Part shown: positions 24,369-28,126 of the stretch, piece by piece | Position numbering within the stretch: the stretch's first letter is position 1 | Layout of the letters: each line of letters opens with the position of its first letter | Assembly: GCF_003063315.1 (NCBI RefSeq) | Contig: NZ_NERV01000001.1 | Location: 1,240,001-1,304,000 of the forward strand | Reading direction: 5' to 3' | Length of the DNA stretch: 64,000 nucleotides | From: Limnohabitans sp. T6-5 | GTDB lineage: Bacteria; Pseudomonadota; Gammaproteobacteria; Burkholderiales; Burkholderiaceae_C | Notes under the pieces: generated by a model | Told to the model about the DNA's origin: nothing | The model's database searches: none | Seen by the model: only the letters and a program-made list of their open reading frames with translations | Program-made: the position numbers and the translations under genes

Positions 24369-25169
24369 ATGCTCGCCAAACGCATCATCCCTTGCCTCGA
24401 CGTGACTGGCGGTCGCGTGGTCAAGGGCGTCAACTTTGTTGAACTGCGCGACGCCGGAGACCCGGTTGAAATCGCGGCCCGCTACAACGAGCAAGGCGCT
24501 GACGAACTCACGTTTTTGGACATCACCGCCACCAGCGACGGGCGCGACGTGATCCTGCACATCATCGAAGCCGTGGCCAGCCAGGTCTTCATCCCGCTCA
24601 CCGTGGGCGGCGGTGTGCGCACCGTGGAAGACGTGCGCCGATTGCTGAATGCCGGGGCCGACAAAACCAGCTTCAACTCGGCCGCCATTGCCAACCCACA
24701 AGTCATCCGCGAAGCGTCTGCCAAATACGGCGCGCAATGCATCGTGGTCGCCATCGACGCCAAACGCCGCAGCGCGGAAGACGAGCAGCGCATCGGCACC
24801 AACGGTTTGCCCATGGGCCCCGGCTGGGACGTGTACAGCCACGGTGGCCGCAAAAACGTGGGCTTGGACGCCGTGGCCTGGGCCACCCAAATGGCCGAAT
24901 ACGGCGCGGGCGAAATCCTGCTGACCAGCATGGACCGCGACGGCACCAAAAGCGGCTTTGACCTGCAACTGACCCGCGCCGTGAGCGACGCCGTGAGCGT
25001 CCCCGTGATCGCATCGGGCGGCGTGGGCAACCTCGACCACCTGGCCGACGGCGTGAGCATCGGCGGCGCGGATGCGGTGCTGGCTGCGAGCATTTTTCAC
25101 TACGGTGAATACACGGTGCAGCAGGCTAAAGAACGGATGCGGGAGCGTGGGATTCCTGTGCGCTTATGA
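24369..25169 (+). CDS. hisF: Imidazole glycerol phosphate synthase, cyclase subunit
   Basis: A 266-residue TIM barrel that joins PRFAR and HisH-derived ammonia to give IGP and [23 protein letters not shown] contains catalytic Asp11, and [15 protein letters not shown] contains the second Asp. The gene is intact although inserted sequences lie on both sides. Confidence 0.97.
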
Positions 25170-25176
25170 GGTCTGT

Positions 25177-25603
25177 TCAGACTTGAAGCAATAAATCCAA
25201 AGGGCTGGCGGTGACACCCGCCAGCAGCGCGGTCATTCCTTTCATTTGTGCCAATAGGCCAGGTAGCTCGTTCTTGGTCAGCACCGCTGGAATGCGCTTG
25301 GTCTGCTGCGGTCGCCCAATGTTGTTGAGCCAAGGCAAATCAATGCCCAGTACCTCGCGATAGAAAAACAGCACAGCATTGAGCGCTTGGTTGTGAGCGG
25401 AGGCAGATACCTTGCGCTCATTGACCAGTATGGACAAAAACGCTTCCAAATCGGCCACACCCTTCTCGCGTGGGTGGCGAATGCTTCCAGCCTGACTAGC
25501 ACTCCAGTGAATGAAAAAAACGAATTCAATAGCGGTAATTTTTTTGTTTTTGAGGCTATAGTGCAGAAACCGAACCTGCTCGCTCGCATGAGCGAGCGAG
25601 CAG
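25177..25603 (-). pseudogene. Integron-type tyrosine recombinase (IntI-like), degraded remnant
   Basis: Reading the minus strand from about 25603 gives VRFLHYSLK, then a frame change to NYRY*IRFF with a TGA where such proteins have Trp. The first frame returns with RHPREKGVADLEAFLS, ALNAVLFFYREVLGIDLPWL and NIGRPQQTKRIPAVLTKNEL. These segments match the N-terminal SAM-like domain and the domain junction of IntI/XerC-type integrases in order. Similarity stops near 25215 just before the catalytic domain, so no R, H or Y catalytic residue remains. It is truncated, frame-shifted and surely inactive. It lies eight bases after hisF. Confidence 0.8.
25204..25225. repeat. GC-rich hairpin after hisF
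   Basis: An 8-bp perfect stem, GCTGGCGG (25204-25211) with CCGCCAGC (25218-25225), loop TGACAC. No T run follows on the plus strand, so termination of the his transcript here is uncertain. It lies at the point where integrase similarity is lost. Confidence 0.5.
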
Positions 25604-25605
25604 GT
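25574..25605. repeat. Perfect 14-bp hairpin
   Basis: Bases 25574-25587 pair perfectly with 25592-25605 around the four-base loop ATGA. The core is a CTCG/CGAG repeat (CTGCTCGCTCGC). It covers the 5' end of the integrase remnant. There is no T run on either side, so it is not a plain terminator. Possible origins are a REP unit, a recombination site arm or a scar of integration. Confidence 0.8.
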
Positions 25606-25876
25606 GGACTATAAGGAAGGGGCACCGGGTTACGGGGTTAAGACCACATGGGAAATTTATGCCTGTGCGAAATCACAGCATATGAACCTGTATACCAAGG
25701 CGCGAGCGGCTTGCAGCTATTTAATCCAAAAAATGTATCGACTGCGCCCGGATGTATCCACAGGGTTTTGCGGCCTACATCACGTTAGGCTTTGTTGCTT
25801 AACGCAATGACCAAAATTCTGAACCAACTCACGGAGTCAGGCATCCTTCAAATTTAAAAATATGTGAAATGTAACC
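25606..25876. other. Gene-free gap between integrase remnant and protease
   Basis: About 270 bases with no convincing gene. GTTAGGC at 25784-25790, followed by GCTTAAC at 25797-25803, forms an imperfect inverted repeat (25783-25804); GTTAGGC fits the GTTRRRY core of integron recombination sites. The base composition falls towards AT from about 25840 into the protease gene. No promoter is clear. Confidence 0.4.
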
Positions 25877-25889
25877 ATGTTGAAATTAT

Positions 25890-27548
25890 TTGTTTTTAAT
25901 ATTTTTTTTTCTATGCTCATTTGGGCTTCATGCTAATGAGGCTGAAATTTACGACTGTAGTCGTGATACGGATATTAAAATTAATCGACTATGGGTCAAA
26001 TATCGAAGTGTTGTAACAGAGTCGCTACAGAAGGATCTTACTTTCTCTGAGATCCAGTCTCTTTATAAACAAACTTTAGATCGTAAAGTTTTTTCCTCGT
26101 GCCTTCGACAAGTTAGGGCTGAGTTTGATTTCTTTAAAAAACTAGAATCTATACAAGAATGTTCCAATAATATATTGGGATCACATAACATCTCACATAA
26201 AGACATCTTCGTACTGAATCGTCTACGACAAAATCGCTACGTTGACTATACTGAAACTGGTGCTAAGTTGGCTCATACTTGCATTTCAAAATTCTATGAA
26301 ATAGAGATGCCAAAAGTTTGCACTAGGGAAAAATGGGGCGATATTGAGACATCCAAGACGAATGATTTTTATTCTAAATCCTTGGATGCACAGGAGGCAG
26401 AAATTAGGCAGATGACATCTTCAATGCAAACGCCGAGTTACACAGACTTAGGTCCAATGGGGAAAAGTTTATTTGCAGACTGTTTGGCGTTAAAAAATGC
26501 ATCAACGAGTGATCGAATTAGATTCGCACAGTATCTTGATGCCCGGGTTTTTTGGCTTTCTTCCGAACAGAAAGTTTTAGAGATCGTTTCGAGATTTAAA
26601 GCAACAAGTTCCCCTTATCAAAAACTTATTGACGACAAAAGATATGAAGTAAGTACAGTTACAGCCCAGCCTATCAATACACTTGTGCGAGTAGAAGCCA
26701 AGATTGGCAGCATTTGTTCTGGTGCATTTATAGTTGATTTGCAAACTATTGCCACAGCGGCACATTGTTTTGGAAATAAAGGAAATAACAGTCTACCGAT
26801 TAAAGTGCATTTAGTTCGAGAGAATGGCCAAATCATTGAAAGTCTTCCAGCAATTATCGCCGAAATGGGTGATTATGAATTTAATGGCAAAAAAGTCAGA
26901 CCCAATACCCATGATGATGCCTCTGTTGATTGGGCCATTCTTCGACTTGCATACAAACCAAAATCGCAACATGTTCAAGCGCTTGAGGTCATTGAAGATA
27001 ATTTCAAATTCGGAACCATACCTCGTGCAATATCCCCATTTTTGAGTATGGGTTTTCCTGGGGATTGGCCGGGGGGGCGACCAGTCTTTAAGCAATGCAA
27101 GCCAATTCTCAGAGAGGATACTCATTCAAAGCGACAGGTGGAATCCAGACGCAGAGTTAATGATACAAACTTGGTCTTTGACCAAAAGTGCGCAATGTAC
27201 CCAGGCGATTCTGGGGGGCCTATGATTTTTTGGGATCGTGATGCTGATGTATATAGACTTGCTGGAATTTTGACTGGTGGTACTGGATTTTGGGCCCCAG
27301 ACCTAACAGCTTTACCGAAAGAGGTCGGAGGTATAAGAGCAAAGCTGAAGGGGTTAGGTGCTATGAAAGATCGGTTCGGTGATGAGTTTGATGCTGTTGA
27401 ATTTGATGGAAGCCTCATGCAACGCGATAGCAAATTCCTCATGAACTCCACGTTTCTTTGCGCACTTTCAAAGTACCATCCAAATCTTGCATCCAGTTGT
27501 AACCTTTCCCAAATACCAGAGTTGATGACTATGCCGTTCGAGTGGTAA
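25890..27548 (+). CDS. Secreted trypsin-like serine protease (start frame broken)
   Basis: 552 residues are open in this frame, from TTG 25890. The C-terminal half is an S1 protease domain with all three catalytic residues visible: TIATAAHCF (His), SVDWAILRL (Asp) and YPGDSGGPMI (Ser). The N-terminal 240 residues, rich in Cys and charged helices, match nothing I recognise. A good signal peptide appears only if ATG 25877 is joined to this frame by loss of one T from the T9 run; the in-frame TTG has no ribosome site. Codon use is strongly AT-rich compared with every neighbour, marking horizontal transfer. It may be silent, phase-variable or expressed by slippage. The substrate is unknown. Confidence 0.75.
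   Translation: MFLIFFFLCSFGLHANEAEIYDCSRDTDIKINRLWVKYRSVVTESLQKDLTFSEIQSLYKQTLDRKVFSSCLRQVRAEFDFFKKLESIQECSNNILGSHNISHKDIFVLNRLRQNRYVDYTETGAKLAHTCISKFYEIEMPKVCTREKWGDIETSKTNDFYSKSLDAQEAEIRQMTSSMQTPSYTDLGPMGKSLFADCLALKNASTSDRIRFAQYLDARVFWLSSEQKVLEIVSRFKATSSPYQKLIDDKRYEVSTVTAQPINTLVRVEAKIGSICSGAFIVDLQTIATAAHCFGNKGNNSLPIKVHLVRENGQIIESLPAIIAEMGDYEFNGKKVRPNTHDDASVDWAILRLAYKPKSQHVQALEVIEDNFKFGTIPRAISPFLSMGFPGDWPGGRPVFKQCKPILREDTHSKRQVESRRRVNDTNLVFDQKCAMYPGDSGGPMIFWDRDADVYRLAGILTGGTGFWAPDLTALPKEVGGIRAKLKGLGAMKDRFGDEFDAVEFDGSLMQRDSKFLMNSTFLCALSKYHPNLASSCNLSQIPELMTMPFEW
25902..25910 (+). repeat. Run of nine T inside the protease signal-peptide codons
   Basis: With nine T, the frame from ATG 25877 (MLKLFVFNIF...) stops at 25934. 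With eight T, that ATG would read straight into the protease frame and give a normal signal peptide. This is the pattern of a slippage or phase-variation tract, or of a sequencing error. Confidence 0.85.
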
Positions 27549-27736
27549 CTTAAAGTTGGGTCATTCGTAGGCGTTGATATAAGTTGTAGTCTTTCGAGCA
27601 TCTTCCTAAGTCATAGCTTCCAATTCAGGCTGCACAGTTTTACAGACAATGCCGAGTCGTAGATGGTCACAACTGCGCATGGGTTGGTGCATATATGCCT
27701 AACTGTCGCATCCCAATGTCTTAAGATCAACCCCCT
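27549..27736. other. Gap between protease and hisI, right end of island
   Basis: 188 bases without a gene. GCCTAAC at 27697-27703 is the exact complement of GTTAGGC at 25784-25790, so the two core-like heptamers face each other around the protease gene. No complete attC structure or terminator is visible, and no convincing promoter for hisI could be picked out. Confidence 0.35.
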
Positions 27737-28126
27737 ATGAACTGGCTCGATCAAATCAAATGGGACGACAAAGGCTTGGTGCCGGTCATTGCCCAAGAAA
27801 AAGACACTGGCGACGTGTTGATGTTCGCCTGGATGAACCGCGAGGCGCTGCAAAAGACGGCCGAACTCAAGCGGGCGGTGTATTTCAGCCGTTCACGCAA
27901 CAAGCTGTGGTTCAAGGGTGAGGAGTCGGGCCATGTGCAGACGGTGCACGACATCCGCATCGACTGCGACAACGATGTGGTGCTGCTCAAAATCACCCAG
28001 CTGGGGCACGAGCCGGGCATTGCCTGCCACACGGGCCGCCACAGCTGCTTTTTCCAGAGCTTGCAGCCAGATGGCTGGCAGGCGACCGATCCGGTCTTGA
28101 AAGACCCAGAAACCATTTACAAGTGA
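27737..28126 (+). CDS. hisI: Phosphoribosyl-AMP cyclohydrolase
   Basis: A 129-residue monofunctional HisI that hydrolyses the adenine ring of PR-AMP. The metal-binding segment [11 protein letters not shown] and [11 protein letters not shown] (zinc cysteines) are intact. hisE is a separate gene, as in most betaproteobacteria. The island upstream cuts it off from hisF, so hisI-hisE and the genes after them need another promoter or long read-through. Confidence 0.97.

Follow-up and report, generated by a model that had tools for sequence, protein, structure and literature searches.

A predicted exported trypsin-fold protease with a probable out-of-frame start, probably the last cassette of a dead integron between hisF and hisI of Limnohabitans sp. 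T6-5

In the window (the whole analyzed stretch of 64,000 nucleotides from contig NZ_NERV01000001.1 of Limnohabitans sp. T6-5), the genes hisF and hisI flank a gap that holds the remnant of an integron integrase gene, an attI region, and a gene cassette encoding a trypsin-type protease. The features of this locus are listed below by their window coordinates.

24369-25169, + strand: hisF, left chromosomal flank (ORF; 96.6-99.6% protein identity on 14 of 19 pieces from relatives)
25177-25593, - strand: intI remnant, N-terminal part only, with the catalytic half (~550 bp) missing at 25219-25221 compared with the G118 copy (TIGR02249; breakpoints against L027 and L026)
25640-25790, + strand: attI region, with the core GTTAGGC at 25784-25790 as its right end; the cassette begins inside the core (14-sequence alignment)
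25785-27708, + strand: gene cassette, 40.5% GC; left edge at the attI core, right edge at the common pre-hisI DNA
25877-25936, + strand: ATG frame, a signal-like peptide of 19 residues followed by TAA (frames read from the sequence)
25890-27548, + strand: protease frame, 552 aa from TTG, with the trypsin domain at residues 259-465 and an N-terminal region of unrecognized type (ORF list, Pfam, motifs)
25902-25910, + strand: run of nine T, at which the protease frame is shifted by one base from the ATG frame; the genome has 16 such tracts in all
27697-27708, + strand: probable truncated attC, an R''-type GCCTAAC plus spacer without L'', L', and R' (finder, comparison with relatives)
27737-28126, + strand: hisI, right chromosomal flank (ORF; pieces from relatives)

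Translation from ATG 25877 gives MLKLFVFNIFFSMLIWASC and ends at the TAA at 25934-25936. The protease frame is open from just past the TGA at 25881-25883 through the TAA at 27546-27548, and the first ATG, GTG, or TTG that it contains is TTG 25890. Nine T were read from the sequence at 25902-25910, and the two frames are offset by one base across this run, which confirms the proposal of an earlier note on this DNA that removing one T would join them; the position of the stop that the note gave for the ATG frame was also borne out. The same note had described an intact His-Asp-Ser triad, and the motifs AAHC, DWAIL, and GDSGGP are indeed all present in the long frame. Beyond the start region, the body is free of a second lesion over 552 codons, which counts against a long-neglected gene, since such a gene would tend to gather more. 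That the conserved triad argues against long decay is a fair point, although the same picture would be expected of a cassette that had been captured and had recently gained a single lesion.

The long frame matches the Pfam profile Trypsin (PF00089) with an E-value of 1.2e-11 (residues 259-465; 45.3 bits compared with a cut-off of 20.6), and a match to Trypsin_2 (E = 1.1e-6) is also above its cut-off. No significant Pfam match was obtained for the N-terminal region of the 552-aa protein, none of the NCBIfam profiles matched the protease, and the best match among PHROGs reached only an E-value of 0.095. The best match among solved structures was trypsin (E = 0.085). A single-sequence AlphaFold2 model was too low in confidence to use (pLDDT 32.3), and the fold assignment therefore rests on Pfam. 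A match to LmuA in PADLOC (E = 1.1e-5) covers residues 266-462 only and was rejected as a reflection of the shared trypsin domain. Twelve cysteines remain past the signal region, consistent with an oxidizing compartment, and the protease is predicted to be exported. The residue six positions before the active serine is Ala. We take this position to be 189 in trypsin numbering, which is occupied by Asp in trypsin, and the specificity of the enzyme is therefore probably not that of trypsin.

Close homologues of the protease were found neither in genome contigs or viral contigs, as screened by exact short-peptide searches that would miss distant relatives, nor in the plasmids or phages searched, nor in any of 99 other relatives. 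The gene was also absent from all 89 other genomes of the genus. The order sample (399 genomes) contained one genome besides our own with a trypsin-only match, and the phylum sample (398 genomes) contained two genomes with weak ones. Because the collections searched held no close relative, no homologue settles the start or the length of the tract, and variation of tract length among relatives cannot be seen. The cassette protein resembles exported proteobacterial proteases of PF00089 in its trypsin domain and triad, and one of these, the other match in the order sample (G386, L045), also has a hydrophobic N-terminus. It differs from the latter protein, with which it shares only 29% identity over the trypsin part, and it differs from the family in its N-terminal region and in the Ala that replaces the trypsin Asp.

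On the opposite strand, a 93-aa ORF next to hisF matched TIGR02249 (E = 2e-21) and PRK15417 (E = 4.5e-24) and was identified as a remnant of an integron integrase. It covers profile positions 3-122 of 315, and about 550 bp of the catalytic half are gone in comparison with G118, so that an active integrase with its catalytic domain is lacking. The G118 stretch that matches the missing DNA was recognized by motifs that we take to mark the catalytic half. Integrase profiles matched the own genome seven times and, among the matches listed, two others cover only positions 237-303, as we would expect of XerC and XerD. The single match of PF13495 in the genome is the intI remnant between hisF and hisI. 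DNA similar to 25165-25640 was detected in 20 of 80 genomes of the genus and DNA similar to the attI region (25640-25795) in 33 of 90, the own genome being included in both counts. An integrase match above the family cut-off was present in only one of the 80 genomes, G118, where the N-terminal part beside the match carries two TGA stops. These results indicate that the platform is mostly decayed. A 32-base near-palindrome with GCTCGC repeats was also observed at 25574-25605, in the 5' region of the integrase gene.

An alignment of 14 sequences, comprising the window and 13 of the 19 pieces from relatives (L032, L036, L037, L038, L039, and L041 were left out), showed conserved DNA as far as the core at 25784 and unrelated sequence past it. 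The core reads GTTA in 11 of the 14 sequences and GTTAGG in six, while CATATG stands in G059 and at one place in G026. Blast matches of the window gap ended at 25783-25796 in 14 of the 19 pieces and earlier in the other five. We read this end of similarity at the attI core as the usual edge of a cassette, and the cassettes at the site differ between strains. Five of the 13 aligned pieces are without hisF (L033, L035, L040, L043, and L044), which indicates that this kind of attI is also located at other places or at the ends of contigs. The same edge pattern was found in 14 stretches from named genomes, six of them Limnohabitans and three labeled Comamonadaceae bacterium; the others belong to a Comamonas bin, uncultured Burkholderiales or beta proteobacteria, and CP012157. 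In the own genome, where no second integrase N-terminal match accompanies it, another attI-like copy was located (L161:3693-3776, corresponding to C5:53692-53775), which is followed by frames of 200 and 411 aa.

At the right edge of the cassette, the pre-hisI DNA that is common to relatives resumes at 27709-27714 (seven sequences). Directly before it stands GCCTAACTGTCG, which resembles an attC of G011 in its R'' end and spacer. The attC finder returned no forward match and one reverse match at the window locus. No whole attC was found there, only the GCCTAAC half-site at 27697. It returned 15 forward and seven reverse matches in 19 regions from relatives (72 kb), and 18 + 12 matches in 14 named loci, which are not oriented and represent partly the same DNA. 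As a control, the finder was run on the window beyond the locus (57 kb) and gave four matches on the two strands together, so some of the attC matches in relatives are chance matches. The right-hand attC of the cassette is probably truncated, and the cassette is probably fixed at its site. Another candidate attC, a perfect ACCTAAC/GTTAGGT pair at 27301-27359, was discarded because the finder, which also requires L boxes, gave no forward match for it. This pair has attC-like ends, measures 59 bases end to end, lies in the protease frame just past the trypsin domain, and is probably due to chance.

The 19 pieces from relatives had been chosen for holding integrase-like DNA and are uninformative on genomes without such DNA. 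Six of them carry both hisF and hisI, with 1.5-6.4 kb between the two genes, and the gap comparison was based on window positions 25170-27736 together with L028, L029, L034, L039, L041, and L042. Cassette-like arrays occupy the hisF-hisI gap of relatives. Two attC-like sites were recognized by eye in G022, one of which was also found by the finder. The ORFs of the array in G059 presumably represent acetyltransferase, cupin-like, glyoxalase-like, and toxin-antitoxin types, and two small frame pairs next to hisI (L029:1421-3052) resemble what we take to be toxin-antitoxin cassettes of the RelE/YoeB type. Judged from these comparisons, integrons recur in the gap between hisF and hisI in the genus, with strain-specific content, and the protease gene appears to be the only cassette left in a chromosomal integron of the T6-5 genome that is now dead.

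Where the protease gene starts has to be weighed before the frame break can be interpreted. With the frames counted as one, ATG 25877 is followed by Lys and by 19 residues to an L-H-A site, and by the logic of signal peptides this ATG is the most plausible start. The earlier note had read a good hydrophobic signal sequence from it. The peptide itself is weak evidence. When 25791-25901 was shuffled 5000 times by dinucleotides, 52% of the shuffles contained an open ATG in one or the other wrong frame, and 16% had such an ATG at the offset seen here, with K or R within the first eight residues. Several frames of T-rich DNA encode hydrophobic residues. The ATG-led signal is thus suggestive but no proof of the start, and it may be a chance product. 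A gene that is intact and begins at TTG 25890 with the short signal LFLIFFFLCSFGLHA would make the ATG 25877 peptide an accident of T-rich DNA. The shuffles are in line with this alternative, as is the long frame, which is whole from TTG 25890. The resulting signal of 15 residues passes a crude signal test. A screen with this test covered 1.17 Mb from three genomes, required an ATG with a purine-rich stretch upstream, and retained 55 N-termini with a median signal length of 21. Five of these 55 signals are no longer than 15 residues, so that shortness alone does not argue the TTG away. Against it speak the TTG codon and the lack of any K or R in the signal, as K or R were present in 51 of the 55 N-termini obtained with this ATG-demanding filter; the four exceptions, the only ones inspected, by eye resemble other proteins and not signal peptides. 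A stretch resembling a ribosome-binding site was seen by eye before neither TTG 25890 nor ATG 25877, and this counts against both starts equally. On balance, we regard a start at TTG 25890 as rather unlikely.

The protease frame itself is clearly beyond chance, and the T9 run is not. The cassette has a GC content of 40.5% (measured over 25785-27736) compared with 58% for the window. When the first 20 codons of the long frame were resampled synonymously, given the Phe-rich peptide and the codon use of the protease ORF itself, 42% of the resamplings contained at least nine consecutive T, and 16% of Markov copies of the cassette contained an A or T run of nine. The run is therefore expected by composition and not longer than composition predicts. 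Genome-wide, there are 16 T9 tracts and no longer T tracts, so nine is the maximum for T; by eye, seven of the 16 adjoin GC-rich inverted repeats that resemble terminators. Runs of at least nine G or C amounted to 17 tracts after collapsing, with a maximum length of 11. The 16 T9 contexts revealed no group of tracts placed at the starts of genes, and nothing in them or in the contexts inspected for six of the 17 G/C tracts pointed to a set of phase-variable genes. These data leave unsupported the suggestion that the gene is a contingency locus, in which DNA slippage at T9 would toggle protease export within the population. The location of the run in the signal region, the stop after 19 codons, and the otherwise whole body would suit such a locus. 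However, the tract is short and compositionally expected, nine T are the genome's maximum and occur 16 times, seven of these by eye next to terminator-like hairpins, and relatives with varying tract length are lacking, with the gene in none of the 89 other genomes of the genus. We consider a contingency locus very improbable.

The length of the run may also be an assembly error. A generally error-prone assembly was rejected, because frame breaks were not in excess over 400 kb of own DNA: of 94 and 113 matched ORFs of relatives, three and four, respectively, showed a frame change, and comparisons between or towards relatives gave 4 of 86, 5 of 79, 5 of 96, and 9 of 122 matched ORFs. Many of the flagged pairs are probably shadow ORFs, and none of the seven own frame-change junctions has a run above five. 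This check cannot vouch for one T9, and T9 runs are too few to test.

The explanation that we consider moderately probable combines these observations without an adaptive role for the frame break. An exported protease of the trypsin fold would have been captured as an integron cassette at attI between hisF and hisI. The integron would now be dead, as suggested by the integrase without its catalytic half and the probably truncated right-hand attC. We infer that the frame break is of non-adaptive origin: a homopolymer that is itself expected from composition would be one base off in length, through either a replication-slippage mutation in a gene under weakened selection or an error of assembly. 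As the gene stands, translation from ATG 25877 would yield 19 residues and then stop. The cassette is co-oriented with the his genes and may be co-transcribed with them, and in that case the early stop could lower hisI expression by polarity. A simple scan of 25450-27800 for sigma-70-like promoters returned six sites, where shuffled sequences gave an expectation of 5.0. The + strand ahead of 25877 contained none of the six, so the scan identified no promoter for the cassette.

If the T9 run is real, slippage of RNA polymerase at U9 may rescue a minority of full-length mRNA, and transcriptional slippage at nine T is possible on the published grounds given by Baranov et al. (PMC1088944). The same authors report that, for a large share of genomes, selection against A or T runs is evident once a run reaches nine (Baranov et al. 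2005, PMC1088944). Slippage might even be programmed, so that a small but constant share of the product is full-length protease that can be exported. In line with this, "pseudo pseudogenes" with a slippage-prone run, in which eight A became nine, are described there (PMC1088944), and for Shigella slippage of 15% for mxiA and 20-30% for mxiE is reported (PMC4256274). The cassette shares with the "pseudo pseudogenes" a one-base break in a nine-base homopolymer where slippage on the mRNA could restore the frame, but those are changes from eight to nine A (PMC1088944), whereas here the run is of T and no intact homologue was found that would give the ancestral length. It also resembles mxiE of Shigella flexneri and tssM1 of Citrobacter rodentium, in which a homopolymer joins two overlapping frames; in those genes slippage was measured (PMC1088944, PMC4256274), whereas in the cassette it is hypothetical. 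Moreover, the cassette would need one U lost or two gained, in contrast to the one gained in mxiE as described there, and the required direction thus differs (PMC1088944). As the searches gave no close homologue, the run cannot be shown to be conserved. Programmed slippage therefore appears quite improbable to us. There is likewise only a slim chance that the cassette brought its own slippage switch, with T9 in the signal peptide setting the exported amount of a protease whose gene shares a transcript with the his genes and so permitting variable expression despite the frozen integron. If slippage did occur, cassette genes with nine-base runs would form a testable class of leaky pseudogenes.

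Among the titles listed in literature searches, none concerned the integron locus between hisF and hisI or a cassette gene switched by slippage, which does not by itself establish that such reports are absent. The locus resembles sedentary chromosomal integrons in its intI remnant on the opposite strand, in the end of similarity at the attI core GTTAGGC, and in the cassette arrays with attC-like sites in relatives. It differs from them in the dead integrase, the single cassette without a whole attC found, and the location between hisF and hisI. On the favored reading of a captured and then stranded cassette, a gene that appears "switched" in the raw sequence can be just such a cassette with a composition-driven homopolymer. 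As a by-product, the comparisons point to a recurrent, mostly decayed integron platform between hisF and hisI in Limnohabitans-type bacteria, which places captured genes among biosynthetic genes.
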